From assembly GCA_024402095.1 (NCBI GenBank), contig JAKSJU010000002.1:29123-93122 (forward strand): 64,000 nucleotides of DNA. The letters run 5' to 3'. The translations under genes were made by a program, and so were the position numbers. Positions 5,076-55,716 of the stretch are shown in pieces; position 1 is the stretch's first letter, and every line of letters begins with the position of its first letter. The notes under the pieces are model-generated. The model saw only the letters and a list, made by a program, of their open reading frames with translations, was not told where the DNA came from and searched no databases. Source of the stretch: Bacteroidales bacterium. GTDB lineage: Bacteria > Bacteroidota > Bacteroidia > Bacteroidales > UBA932.

Positions 5076-6460
5076 TGATACATTTTGAAGATACCGTCTG
5101 CGCCCCTGCAACGTCTGCTGCGGGGGCGATAAGTGTAATCAGGGTCAGCGGCCCCGACACTTTCCGCATCACGGACAGACTGGTATCCTTTGTGTCCGGT
5201 GACACAGCAACTTCCAAGGGATATACTCTCAAATATGGCAGGATTTTCAATGACCCTGCACATTCGGAGGAACTCGATGAAGTGCTAGTGTCCGTATTCA
5301 GGGCCCCGCACTCATATACGGGTGAAGATTCTGTCGAGATCAGTTGCCATGCTTCCGGATATATTGTTAAATCCATACTTGAAGCATTTGTTTCCGCAGG
5401 TGCCAGAATGGCGGAGCCGGGTGAATTCACCAGACGTGCCTTTGTCAACGGAAAACTTGATCTGGCACAGGCTGAAGCAGTCGCAGATCTATTAGCTGCA
5501 GGTTCCAGAACCGCTCACAGGATAGCCATCAATCATCTTAAAGGCGAATATTCTGACGCCCTCCGCAGCCTTCGCGACAAACTTCTAGAACTCACTGCAC
5601 TGATGGAACTGGAGCTGGATTTCAGTGAAGAAGACGTGGAATTCGCAGACCGCTCTAAACTCCGCACAATCCTGGACGATTCTCTTGGCCATATCAGGCG
5701 GTTGTCTGCGTCATTCCGAGACGGAAATGCACTTAGAAACGGTATCCCGGTTGCGATCGTCGGTGCGGTGAACAGCGGCAAGAGCACTCTTCTGAATGCC
5801 CTGGTCGGTGATGAAAGAGCAATCGTATCAGATATCCCGGGGACTACCAGGGATACTGTGGAAGAAACAATGACAATCGACGGCCTTCTCTACAGGTTCA
5901 TCGATACTGCAGGACTCCGGGAAACAGATGACAAAGTCGAGCAGATCGGCATCAGGCGCTCATTGGACAAACTTTCCGCAGCTGACATAGTTATTGCCGT
6001 GCTTGACGGCTGCGCTGACTCTTCGGAGAATTCCAGGTCCCTGTCCGATATTCAGGCCAGGACTGCAGGCCACCAGACCCTTATCGCTGTTACCAACAAA
6101 ATCGACATATCTCCTGCAATAGAAGGAACCCTGGGCATTTCCGCAATCTCCGGAGCAGGCACTGAAGAACTCAAAAAACTAATCTCGGAGTCCCAGGCAC
6201 GAAGATTTACGCTTGAAGACACCGTTGTCACGAGTGCTCGTCACTACGAGGCTCTTGTTCGTGCGTCAGAGTCACTTGAACGTGTCCGCACCGGACTTGA
6301 TTCCGGGACACCTTCGGACCTCGTCGCCGAAGATCTCCGCTCAGCAATCAACGAACTCAACGGAATATTCGGAGACTCCGGCTCATTCAGCACCTCCTTC
6401 GCCATCGACTTTCAGGCCATCACCGACCTCATCTTCAGCCGATTCTGCATCGGGAAGTGA
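5075..6460 (+). CDS. mnmE: tRNA modification GTPase MnmE (TrmE)
   Basis: With MnmG, installs the (carboxymethyl)aminomethyl group on wobble uridine 34 of certain tRNAs. It has 461 residues. The N-terminal folate-binding domain includes EPGEFTRRAF; a helical domain follows. The G domain is inserted with G1 GAVNSGKST at residues 230-238, G3 DTAG at 277-280 and a TNKID G4 motif. The C-terminal FCIGK motif with its essential cysteine closes the protein. It overlaps upp by one base and is followed after 25 nt by the stefin-like lipoprotein gene on the same strand. Confidence 0.96.
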   Translation: MIHFEDTVCAPATSAAGAISVIRVSGPDTFRITDRLVSFVSGDTATSKGYTLKYGRIFNDPAHSEELDEVLVSVFRAPHSYTGEDSVEISCHASGYIVKSILEAFVSAGARMAEPGEFTRRAFVNGKLDLAQAEAVADLLAAGSRTAHRIAINHLKGEYSDALRSLRDKLLELTALMELELDFSEEDVEFADRSKLRTILDDSLGHIRRLSASFRDGNALRNGIPVAIVGAVNSGKSTLLNALVGDERAIVSDIPGTTRDTVEETMTIDGLLYRFIDTAGLRETDDKVEQIGIRRSLDKLSAADIVIAVLDGCADSSENSRSLSDIQARTAGHQTLIAVTNKIDISPAIEGTLGISAISGAGTEELKKLISESQARRFTLEDTVVTSARHYEALVRASESLERVRTGLDSGTPSDLVAEDLRSAINELNGIFGDSGSFSTSFAIDFQAITDLIFSRFCIGK

Positions 6461-6485: not shown

Positions 6486-6899
6486 ATGATGAATATTAAA
6501 TCCATAATACCGATAGCCGCCGTTCTTTTGCTTGCCTCCTGCGGCAATAGGCAAAGAATCAATAAGGAAGAAGTCATTAACTATGACATCACCACCACAT
6601 TTCCGGGTCACACCCACGAAAACGAGATACTTTGCGGAGGATATTCAGAAGTCAGGGAGCCAGATATGGATGAATACCAGTTATTCCGTGAAGTGACCGA
6701 TACCGTAAAAGGGATGACCTTCACTCCCCTTTCAGTTCAGACCCAGGTCGTGGCCGGCACCAACTACAAGTTCTATTGCAGGTTCAGCGACGTCTCCGAA
6801 GAATTCAATCCAGGACATTGCTACCTCACCATATACAAGCCACTCCCCGGCCAGGGAGAACCCACAATCACGTCAATCGAAAAGATAAAAATCCTATGA
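6486..6899 (+). CDS. Stefin/cystatin-like lipoprotein (putative cysteine protease inhibitor)
   Basis: A 137-residue lipoprotein: a hydrophobic signal with lipobox LASC puts the lipidated cysteine at residue 19. The mature part resembles type 1 cystatins (stefins) in order. There is an N-terminal trunk CGGYSEV near residue 50. A short helix-like segment follows at about 60-75. The first inhibitory loop QTQVVAGTNY lies at 85-94 (QxVxG core at 87-91). Finally there is YKPLPGQGE at about 117-125, matching the stefin second-loop region with LPGQ. In cystatins these three parts enter the active-site cleft of papain-like (C1) proteases. The helix looks shorter than in animal stefins. I infer a surface or periplasmic protease inhibitor; target and exact topology are unknown. 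It is probably transcribed with mnmE. Confidence 0.75.
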   Translation: MMNIKSIIPIAAVLLLASCGNRQRINKEEVINYDITTTFPGHTHENEILCGGYSEVREPDMDEYQLFREVTDTVKGMTFTPLSVQTQVVAGTNYKFYCRFSDVSEEFNPGHCYLTIYKPLPGQGEPTITSIEKIKIL

Positions 6900-6978: not shown

Positions 6979-7881
6979 CTAGTCCATGCCGACTTTTCCT
7001 TTTCCGGGAAGTATCCGTCGGAGAGAATCGATATTGGCTTTGGATACAGGGATGGTCCTGTCTATACTGAAAAGATGAAGCTGGCAGCCGGCGGAGTTTC
7101 CATCCACATGTGTGATGAACCGTGTGTTCACCAGAAAGGCACGATGGCAATGCAGAAGGAAAGTATAGTCAGAGAGCAGCTCTTCAATATTCTTCAGTGT
7201 ATTTCTGATTCTTTTCTGCATCAGTTCCCCTTCCGAGAAATACCATATGCTGAGATAGTTTGCGACTGATTCTATGTAAAGGATATCCGATGGAGACACA
7301 GTCAATGACTCTTTGTATTCGCCTGTAATCTCCACTGATGCGGACTGCTCATCCTTGACCGGCTCTACTCTTTCAATGACTTCATTGAGGGAAAGCAGTT
7401 CCTGAATCTTGTACTCCTTCATCCTGCTCCTTGTTATAAAATACCAGTATATTGACACGAACAGCGTCCATATAACATTCTGCGTGAAGCTGTTAAGATA
7501 ATACTCGAGAGTGAATTCACCGTCATAATCCACCCAATAGTAATACCAGTGTTCAAATCCCCATTCGATTACTGTAAAATACATTCCGATAATAGCGGAG
7601 ACAAGAATTACAAGAATAATATAAAAGGAGACTTTTCTTTTAACCTGATAAGGCCATTCCTTGGAATAATCGCAAGGAAACCCCAAAATGTATGTGACTA
7701 TTAATTCAGTAATAATTGACCCGATGAAAATCAGTGTGCAGCATCCGAGACTTTGGAGCGCCCACAGATTATCGTTTACTGAGTTTTGGATTCCATATGG
7801 CCTCATCAATGTGAAGAACACGAAAAATCCGAGGCTGAGCAGAACGTAATCCCAAATACTGATCTTCTTAATCTTTTTCAT
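6979..7881 (-). CDS. Membrane-bound LytTR-family transcriptional regulator
   Basis: A 300-residue protein with about four N-terminal transmembrane helices (roughly residues 8-170), a short linker, and a C-terminal LytTR DNA-binding domain (about 190-300) containing LYIESVANYLSIWY and FLLHCHRAFLVN. It has no receiver domain, so the membrane part probably senses the signal directly. I chose ATG 7881 because a GTG 18 bases upstream would lie within the promoter region. Its -7 box ends about 8 nt before this ATG, so the mRNA may be nearly leaderless. It is divergent from the beta-barrel receptor gene at 8066, its most likely target. Confidence 0.85.
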   Translation of the reverse strand: MKKIKKISIWDYVLLSLGFFVFFTLMRPYGIQNSVNDNLWALQSLGCCTLIFIGSIITELIVTYILGFPCDYSKEWPYQVKRKVSFYIILVILVSAIIGMYFTVIEWGFEHWYYYWVDYDGEFTLEYYLNSFTQNVIWTLFVSIYWYFITRSRMKEYKIQELLSLNEVIERVEPVKDEQSASVEITGEYKESLTVSPSDILYIESVANYLSIWYFSEGELMQKRIRNTLKNIEELLSDYTFLLHCHRAFLVNTRFITHVDGNSAGCQLHLFSIDRTIPVSKANIDSLRRILPGKGKVGMD

Positions 7882-53809: not shown

Positions 53810-54529
53810 TCAGATTGAAAGAATATCAAAAACGATATTCATAAGTATATACATCAGGAATACAAGCAGAGGAATCAGCACCCAGTGGAGTCCGAGAACG
53901 AGAACGATCACTGCACAAAGGATGCAATTGACAAGGAAACAGATTCTCTTCTGCTTCAAGGATTTCTCATCGTCGCGGCTGAATTTCAAGGAGAACATGG
54001 GAATCTCCGCGATGAGCAGGAATGAAAGCACAGCCGAACAGATAGGGATAAACCAGTTTCCGGCCGCCCAGGACGCAAGGAAAGATGCAGGCTCGGCAGC
54101 TATGAAATAGCAAAGAGACGCGCAGAGAATAGCGCAGGCAGGAGTCGGGAGACCGATAAAGCCATGGCTCTGGCGCGGGTCGATATTGAACTTTGCAAGT
54201 CTGGCAGCGCTGAAGACTGTGATTAGCAGAGGCATAAGGCACACCCAGCTCTGCCCGAAACGGCATTCATACATACATTTCATCATCATCACTGATGGCA
54301 GAAGTCCGAAACTGACCATATCGCACAGTGAGTCAAGCTCCTTGCCAAGGTCTGAATATGCGCCCAGTGCCCTGGCCGCAAATCCGTCGCAGAAATCGAA
54401 CACTGCAGCGGCAATCATCAGGAAGAAGGCGACGTCAGGCCTTCCCCCGAAAGCGGCTATCACACCTAGGGATCCGCATACGAGATTCATAGATGTGATA
54501 GCGTCAGGTATATATTTCGTAAATTTCAT
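53810..54529 (-). CDS. pssA: CDP-diacylglycerol--serine O-phosphatidyltransferase
   Basis: Makes phosphatidylserine, precursor of phosphatidylethanolamine, at the inner membrane. 239 residues, several transmembrane helices, and the CDP-alcohol phosphatidyltransferase signature: D-x2-D-G-x2-A-R-x8-G-x3-D-x3-D, seen as DFCDGFAARALGAYSDLGKE followed by LDSLCD. The start overlaps the stop of the C1 peptidase gene by one base. Confidence 0.93.
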   Translation of the reverse strand: MKFTKYIPDAITSMNLVCGSLGVIAAFGGRPDVAFFLMIAAAVFDFCDGFAARALGAYSDLGKELDSLCDMVSFGLLPSVMMMKCMYECRFGQSWVCLMPLLITVFSAARLAKFNIDPRQSHGFIGLPTPACAILCASLCYFIAAEPASFLASWAAGNWFIPICSAVLSFLLIAEIPMFSLKFSRDDEKSLKQKRICFLVNCILCAVIVLVLGLHWVLIPLLVFLMYILMNIVFDILSI

Positions 54530-55716
54530 TACTTGATATTGAGCTTTGCCTTGATATCCTTAGGAAGAGCGCTCTGGTGAAGGACGAAATCGAGAGTCTG
54601 AGCCTTCACGAATGCTTCGGAAGCATACCAGATACCATTATACTTGCCTGTCTCACCCCAGGAGTTCTTTACCATATAGTACTTGTTTCCGAACTGATCC
54701 TTGGCAATTCCGAAAATCTGCATACCGTGATCGTCCGTCATTGTCTTGTTGTCGAACTCGATCTGACGCTGCTCCTGTGAGACTGTCTTCTCTACGATAG
54801 TATTTACGGCCGGTTTCTCGGAATCGTCCTCACCTACCCAATGAGCCTGGTCCGAGCCGGCAGTGCTGCTTGCCTTGGCATCCACAAGGATTGCAAGTCC
54901 GTCACGGGTAAAACCGGTTTCGCTTACGTCTGCACCCCATGCAACGGTATAACCGTCATTGATAGCCTTGTCAAGCACGTTCATAAGCTCATCGACAGGC
55001 AGATTGAATGCCTTGTCTCCGCGCCAGTTGTCGCATACCTCGATTACAAACTCACTGTAGAAAGGATGATGTGTAAATGAAGTCAGTGAAACGTATTCGT
55101 CAGGATTGAACTTGAGAGCATCACGATAAGACTCCGGAGTATATTCCTTTCCGTCAACCTTGAATGTCTTCGGATAAGCTCCGAGATAAGCCTCAAGGAC
55201 AGCGTCGAATCCGCGTTTCCATGCAGTAGTAAGGGTTCTGTTCGGCTTCCTTACTACAGCGGACACATAAGCCTTGAGAACGGCGTCCAGTTCAGACTGT
55301 GCCGGCTTCTGTGTGCCATAGTTCATGCCTGTCATCTCAGCCTGAGGGACGATGCCGAACTGTCTGATGACCTCGAGTACGTCACCAGCCTCGGAACCTG
55401 CTGAGAAACCGAGGTTTCCGTCCAAACGTACATATTTGTCAGCTCTCTGTGAATAAGAGTGGGATACAACAAAGAATTCGGAAAGGTCTGGATATTTAGC
55501 AGGGTCCTTGATGCCATTGATACGGATAATCTCGGACTCAACGAAGCCGATTGTGGAAAAAGCCCAGCAAGTACCGCTGCTGGCCTGGTCCTTTACAGAA
55601 GTGATAGGATTTTCCTTAACTGTGGTGAACTGATAATCCGGCCAGTTGATCTTGGCCTGTGCGAATGCGGCGCATGCAGAAAGCATCACAAACGCAGAAA
55701 CGATAACTCTTTTCAT
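54529..55716 (-). CDS. Exported C1 (papain-like) cysteine peptidase, bleomycin hydrolase/aminopeptidase C type
   Basis: A 395-residue papain-family peptidase with a signal peptide (about 1-19, ending AFA|Q). Catalytic set: Gln44 (oxyanion), Cys50 in SSGTCWAFS, His330 in DDHGMQIF and Asn351 in KNSWG. Size and the long insert between Cys and His fit the bleomycin hydrolase/PepC branch, but those are usually cytoplasmic; here the protein is exported. It is a possible physiological partner, or self-target, of the stefin-like lipoprotein at 6.5 kb. It is preceded by its own -7 box. Confidence 0.9.
   Translation of the reverse strand: MKRVIVSAFVMLSACAAFAQAKINWPDYQFTTVKENPITSVKDQASSGTCWAFSTIGFVESEIIRINGIKDPAKYPDLSEFFVVSHSYSQRADKYVRLDGNLGFSAGSEAGDVLEVIRQFGIVPQAEMTGMNYGTQKPAQSELDAVLKAYVSAVVRKPNRTLTTAWKRGFDAVLEAYLGAYPKTFKVDGKEYTPESYRDALKFNPDEYVSLTSFTHHPFYSEFVIEVCDNWRGDKAFNLPVDELMNVLDKAINDGYTVAWGADVSETGFTRDGLAILVDAKASSTAGSDQAHWVGEDDSEKPAVNTIVEKTVSQEQRQIEFDNKTMTDDHGMQIFGIAKDQFGNKYYMVKNSWGETGKYNGIWYASEAFVKAQTLDFVLHQSALPKDIKAKLNIK

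Follow-up and report, generated by a model that had tools for sequence, protein, structure and literature searches.

A predicted lipid-anchored stefin in a Bacteroidales genome and its multidomain bacterial relatives

The stefin gene and its product

The DNA considered here is a stretch of 64,000 nucleotides (hereafter the window) from the Bacteroidales bacterium assembly GCA_024402095.1 (contig JAKSJU010000002.1, positions 29,123 to 93,122 of the forward strand), in which an open frame with an ATG start at 6486–6899 on the plus strand encodes a protein of 137 amino acids, predicted to be a lipoprotein carrying a stefin-type cystatin domain. The translation begins with a predicted lipoprotein signal peptide (residues 1–18, LAS preceding Cys19; 6486–6539). 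Cys19, the presumed site of lipidation, and a linker extending to residue 48 occupy 6540–6629; a deletion scar lies in the linker at residues 33–34 (near 6582–6587), its flanks matching both sides of a stretch that is present in a related locus, L006. The stefin domain (residues 49–137; 6630–6896) was assigned from profile searches of the Protein Data Bank (PDB), an AlphaFold2 model and structural matches. Within it are the N-terminal trunk glycines Gly51–Gly52 (6636–6641), the first of which does not vary across the 17 bacterial domains aligned; the first hairpin loop, QVVAG (residues 87–91; 6744–6758), of which the Q, the second V and the G are equally invariant; and the second hairpin loop, PLPGQGE (residues 119–125; 6840–6860). 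Additionally, an F-x-C sequence after QVVAG is nearly invariant among the 17 domains. The lipobox, judged by eye, is present in relatives also.

Stefins A and B of animals are type 1 cystatins, family I25 in MEROPS. The initial annotation had likened the window protein to them on account of three landmarks with the order and spacing of a stefin. The order is as described (GGYSEV at 51–56, QTQVVAGTNY at 85–94 and YKPLPGQGE at 117–125), and the claim of a loop core identical to that of mammalian stefins holds, QVVAGTNY being letter-identical to stefin A in the alignment. The spacing is only roughly right, with 34 residues from GG to QVVAG as opposed to 40 in stefin A, and 28 from QVVAG to LPGQ as opposed to 22.

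Sequence searches show that the resemblance is more than chance. A phmmer search with the single window domain matched stefin A at E 0.0009–0.0011, while a control search with the reversed domain returned no match at E ≤ 10. A profile of six sequences gave 21 matches at E ≤ 10, all of them cystatins (best 6.4e-8), and one of 17 sequences gave 25 matches at E ≤ 1, including 23 cystatins (best 1e-9), a lysozyme at E 0.21 and a laccase at E 0.76; the best sequence match of the profiles in the PDB is a secreted stefin of Fasciola. The single-sequence searches were less clean: cystatins made up 16 of 23 rows at E ≤ 10 in one and 20 of 31 in another, the remainder being mostly antibody light chains at E ≥ 0.27, and both lists were headed by SAKe6BC, a six-fold repeat protein, as the sum of repeats scoring 3–6 bits each.

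Prediction of the structure of residues 45–137, proposed initially as a check, yielded a best AlphaFold2 model with a pLDDT of 80.5 and a cystatin fold, in which one helix (61–71) packs on an antiparallel sheet of four strands (77–88, 92–102, 110–118 and 127–134). QVVAG sits at the hairpin tip where strand 77–88 turns into strand 92–102, and PLPGQGE lies between the last two strands. When the model was used for a structural search the top nine rows were stefins or cystatins; monellin was also among the matches. The profile, the predicted fold and the positions of the loops thus support a lipoprotein with a stefin-type domain, as first described.

Bacterial relatives and their domain architectures

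A scan of genome contigs identified three related loci, L004 and L006 from metagenome-assembled genomes called Horse_feces and L005 from Candidatus Cryptobacteroides fimicaballi. Profile searches, with the genome under study included in each count, matched 12 of 250 genomes of the genus (eight with an intact QxVxG motif and four with a decayed loop), nine of 393 genomes of the order (profile A2) and 23 of 345 in a sample of the phylum (profile A3). Of the matches from the phylum sample, 13 fall in a single family of another class (f136, perhaps Chlorobiaceae), and nine belong to the same class as the genome under study but to different groups within it. Stefins were found additionally on two Persicobacteraceae replicons, whereas the viral contigs and phage records searched held no relatives. 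By eye, apparent Sec signal peptides precede eight of the f136 stefins (L039, L042, L045, L046, L048, L050, L052 and L054).

Architectures within the genus were compared by counting each gene once (L002, L003 and L022 repeat L026, L027 and L006), with L004 and L005 placed in the genus by similarity or name. A domain resembling XAC2610 precedes the stefin in L004, L005, L006, L023, L024 and L026, and follows it in L027; the stefin stands alone in the window copy, L025, L033 and L034; and in L028 it follows a flavodoxin. The motif is kept in these 12 genes, as QVVAG in 11 and as QLVAG in L028. Four further genes (L029–L032) encode flavodoxin-like lipoproteins that end in a stefin-like domain with the loops RPVTGG, RAVTGG, RETSNG and RPVSGG; a profile built from three of these domains matched A3 with a probability of 95.7 (E 1.1e-8). 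Flavodoxin_4 was checked for L028, L030 and L032, L029 and L031 being so called by resemblance. In L006 (1–5264) the two-domain stefin gene adjoins genes that, by eye, resemble phage tape-measure or tail genes and head genes.

Outside the genus, a lipoprotein from another family of the order joins a rhodanese domain to a stefin (L010:1438–2199, minus strand), and in L011 a chagasin-like domain precedes the stefin. Among the relatives examined outside the genus only that of L010 has a lipobox, the rest appearing cytosolic or Sec-secreted by eye. L110 carries a divergent pair of genes approximately 1 kb apart, a stand-alone stefin (5801–6067, minus strand) and a chagasin-like–stefin fusion (7037–7648, plus strand).

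A phylogeny, also proposed at the outset, was constructed from 35 locus or window domains chosen to span the groups, together with two eukaryotic sequences; near-copies and the broken L056 were left out. In both the tree and alignment A3, L008 was represented by its second domain only and the weak second match of genome G425 (L019) was omitted. The deep branches are unresolved, and a single clade of the 12 genus rows with L010 is neither shown nor rejected (p-AU 0.441). Horizontal transfer from a eukaryote was one of the origins envisaged in the initial annotation. That this lineage recently acquired its stefin from an animal might be suggested by the QVVAGTNY identity and by the Fasciola match, but appears very improbable: in the collections searched, which hold almost no eukaryotes, the closest sequences found come from bacteria and make up a clade at the level of the genus (94/89, 10 rows), and the wider family extends across the order, further groups of the class and a second class of the sampled Bacteroidota.

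Loss of a middle domain

The protein was described initially as having no domain besides the stefin, which is correct for the window copy but is a derived state. Close relatives have a domain of approximately 140 residues between the lipobox and the stefin, and the linker of the window protein joins sequence resembling the left flank of this domain in L006 directly to sequence resembling the right flank; the two flanks lie approximately 420 bp apart in L006, a multiple of three that corresponds to an in-frame deletion. In the tree L006 is the partner of the window domain (97/90), and the clade around the pair (six rows, 100/99) consists otherwise of two-domain proteins; since the window copy nests among these, the absence of the middle domain is a derived loss. 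Comparison of the sequences thus indicates that the window gene lost a domain of about 140 residues by in-frame deletion of about 420 bp. The pairwise dN/dS of the stefin domain between the window and L004–L006 is 0.08–0.12, similar to the 0.07–0.11 seen among the two-domain copies; these values give no sign that the stefin half is decaying without its partner, although they do not isolate the window's own branch.

The identity of the lost domain was sought among known families. All seven copies aligned (alignment A6) match a single NCBIfam family at E ≤ 1, the XAC2610-related NF047539, collinearly and with a best E of 1.2e-7. However, the scores fall below the family cut-off, with the first member at 27.9 bits as opposed to 35 and the best E corresponding to about 32 bits by scaling, and partial stretches of giant repeat proteins match NF047539 also, which is reason for further caution. 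XAC2610 is an immunity lipoprotein directed as an inhibitor against a peptidoglycan hydrolase, with a fold resembling that of the lysozyme inhibitor PliI, according to the available text of PMC10933484. Like XAC2610, the X-Tfi immunity protein of PDB entry 4QTQ, the relatives have a lipobox, and their middle domain an acidic DxxxDxxxE loop of the kind that binds calcium in XAC2610; unlike it, all seven copies lack a tyrosine at +11 after the loop, the position of the inhibitory Y170. A tyrosine is present at the equivalent position in L111, L112 and L113 and absent from L115 and L116. Searched against the PDB, the middle domain did not match 4QTQ and gave one chance match only (ribosomal L4, E 2.1), and comparison with the profile of five Bacteroidales members of the XAC2610 family, which themselves match 4QTQ at 1.3e-15, gave a probability of 4.5 (E 0.009). 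A structure model of the two-domain L004 protein was poor (pLDDT 37.8) and was not used. Since there is no match to 4QTQ and the profile comparison is weak, the XAC2610 link is regarded as a lead, weakly supported at the sequence level, as opposed to membership of the family. The XAC2610-like domain was found in five of 200 genomes of the genus, and because it is so rare and a stefin is attached to four of the five copies, their association seems to be no mere coincidence. The fifth copy is unfused (L098, or L108:1754–2326, minus strand).

Genomic setting

A gene named by eye as mnmE-like precedes the stefin gene, the surroundings are ordinary-looking bacterial genes, and the GC content is 0.47–0.49 at the stefin gene and 0.38–0.53 around it. 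With such neighbours, a GC content within range and bacterial relatives elsewhere, contamination with animal DNA is unlikely. When nine window neighbours were compared with 15 relative loci, the sole matches were upp (73%) and, weakly, a permease (23%), each of them at L102, and an earlier neighbour set compared with 13 loci revealed no conserved neighbours. Two further family candidates for the window protein were set aside as weak: LptM, which covers the signal peptide only (13.3 bits, cut-off 27.7), and N_formyltrans_C (PF18216), which at 16 bits (cut-off 25.8) outscores the Pfam Cystatin model.

At 54529–55716 on the minus strand the window also encodes a cysteine peptidase of 395 amino acids that resembles the C1B group (PF03051, 60.9 bits; PF00112, 48.1 bits) and is presumably exported, having a signal peptide by eye. 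Both stretches of the genome that match PF00112 lie in this frame, which therefore holds the only C1 matches found in an assembly that is 84.7% complete. Of the 27 genomes of the genus tested, 26 have a C1 match of one sort or another, and only G013 has a long one of papain type.

Membrane face

In Bacteroidota, acidic residues that follow the lipidated cysteine (CS(D/E)2, SDDDD or K(D/E)2) direct lipoproteins to the cell surface, as described in the available text of PMC5080379 and PMC6222051. In the window protein Cys19 is followed by GNRQR, with no such acidic signal. Acidic residues at positions +2 to +6 average 0.15 in 13 stefin lipoproteins and 1.7 in 20 SusD lipoproteins of the genus (Mann-Whitney p 4e-6, although the rows are not independent and the export signal of this genus is not established). 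The SusD set was drawn from eight genomes, and consists of those that could be parsed among 30 of about 100 matching places, the other 10 having no parsable lipobox or the wrong frame; the decayed-motif flavodoxin fusions, with acid counts of 2, 1, 0 and 0, were kept out of the mean of 13. The location at the surface favoured in the initial annotation is therefore not borne out and, since the acidic signal is absent, a periplasm-facing position seems likelier.

Proposed function and alternatives

We infer from these data that the window protein would be exported and lipidated at Cys19, such that the stefin hangs from the membrane, most likely at its periplasmic face, on a tether of 30 residues. 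The Gly51–Gly52 trunk and the QVVAG and PLPGQGE hairpins would present a wedge able to fit reversibly into the active-site cleft of a papain-like (C1) peptidase and block it, while itself remaining uncut. Its most probable role would be to shield the envelope from foreign papain-like enzymes arriving there, such as cathepsins of grazing gut protists or of the host, or enzymes that neighbours release. Foreign targets were argued for bacterial stefins by Kordis and Turk (PMC2784779, available text). A probability of roughly 0.6 is assigned to this interpretation as a whole.

Several observations weigh against it. The five AlphaFold2 models (80.5, 55.8, 54.3, 46.7 and 35.9) included a single confident one, and the input alignment consisted of four close sequences. 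Between GG and QVVAG the protein has six residues fewer than stefin A, the dN/dS values are pairwise, and hmmscan placed the domain below the cut-off of the Pfam Cystatin model (PF00031; 14.2 versus 22.2 bits). A PF00031 scan of the genome itself missed the stefin gene, which, given that low score, reflects a limit of sensitivity. The motif is lost in four of the 16 genus-level genes, and stefin-like domains can therefore serve something besides inhibition here. It is also less easy to envisage how a periplasmic protein would meet large foreign proteases.

A second choice of use is endogenous, in which the stefin would act in the periplasm as a safety catch, holding back the C1B-like peptidase that the cell itself exports while this enzyme is being secreted. 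That peptidase accounts for the only C1 matches found in the genome and has an apparent signal peptide, and the absence of a surface-export signal on the stefin would place the two proteins in one compartment. However, their genes lie 48 kb apart, the active sites of C1B enzymes are hidden within a hexamer and make poor targets for cystatins, and C1 matches occur in 18 of the 19 stefin-negative genomes of the genus tested, such enzymes usually managing without a stefin. Since the corresponding figure for stefin-positive genomes is eight of eight, co-occurrence is uninformative on an endogenous target. Endogenous control is considered rather unlikely.

The Cryptobacteroides lipoproteins of this group might be envelope anti-digestion devices. 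In the two-domain form a single lipid anchor would bear both an XAC2610-like, inhibitor-like domain directed at peptidoglycan hydrolases and a stefin directed at cathepsins; a bacterium engulfed by a grazing ciliate or a phagocyte is exposed to these two classes of enzyme. The window copy would retain the anti-cathepsin half only. Rumen ciliates express cathepsins and lysozymes (PMC6925433 and PMC6908469, available text), which would fit the two-domain form, by analogy from three horse-named records and studies of the rumen. In PMC6908469 the inhibitor of cysteine proteases, given alone, harmed rumen protozoa least, which is no help to the grazing idea. The proposal is speculative and, on balance, doubtful. 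If the two-domain form does block lysozyme and cathepsins together, it would provide these bacteria with a compact means of resisting grazing protists or phagocytes of the host.

Alternatively, the cystatin fold may have been retained because it serves envelope lipoproteins as a general module for binding or stability, without inhibiting proteases. Cystatin-fold proteins that inhibit no protease exist, for example monellin. The structural matches include monellin itself, the stefin domain is joined to unrelated XAC2610-like, flavodoxin and rhodanese partners, and four flavodoxin fusions retain it without QxVxG. However, none of the 11 genus-level genes found that lack a flavodoxin part, among them the stand-alone window copy, has lost QVVAG, and for the window protein a role of this kind without inhibition seems improbable. 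Stefins occur before as well as after XAC2610-like domains, and flavodoxin lipoproteins carry a decayed stefin-like domain, which suggests that these gut bacteria reuse the cystatin fold as a module of the envelope, one mostly missed by Pfam's model. The domain of 90 residues is soluble and should be easy to produce and to test on papain and cathepsins, making the question of the targets of bacterial stefins directly testable.

Comparison with known systems

A stefin in a bacterium is not in itself new, since bacterial stefins were published in 2009, in Bacteroides and fused to chagasin also (Kordis and Turk; PMC2784779, available text). According to the same text, a bacterial chagasin alone had by then been confirmed to inhibit a eukaryotic protease, and our search of the literature, which was not exhaustive, found no experimental test of a bacterial stefin. 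As judged from search listings, a group of lipid-anchored stefins with fusions was not found in print, and Cryptobacteroides combined with cystatin returned nothing; the group, in which fusion to further envelope domains is frequent, therefore seems to be new.

The bacterial stefins described in the available text of PMC2784779 belong to the same family, have the same motif and show a patchy spread among bacteria. The main text is without the word 'lipoprotein', whereas the window group carries a lipobox, and its available part makes no mention of the XAC2610-like, flavodoxin and rhodanese fusions seen here. The stefin–chagasin fusion of B. fragilis (CAH07101) is described there, and a chagasin-like fusion recurs here in L011. 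Stefins are intracellular and without a signal peptide in that account, and in this strict sense the window protein, with its predicted lipoprotein signal (LASC, Cys19, by eye), departs from type 1; animal stefins A and B lack any such signal. It differs from these also in the shorter stretch before QVVAG, and the bacterial domains in the F-x-C that follows. The type 1 cystatin that Fasciola hepatica secretes (PDB 6i1m) is eukaryotic and not lipid-anchored. In the second hairpin loop, which is LPG in stefin A and PW in cystatins, the window protein has the stefin form, PLPGQGE.
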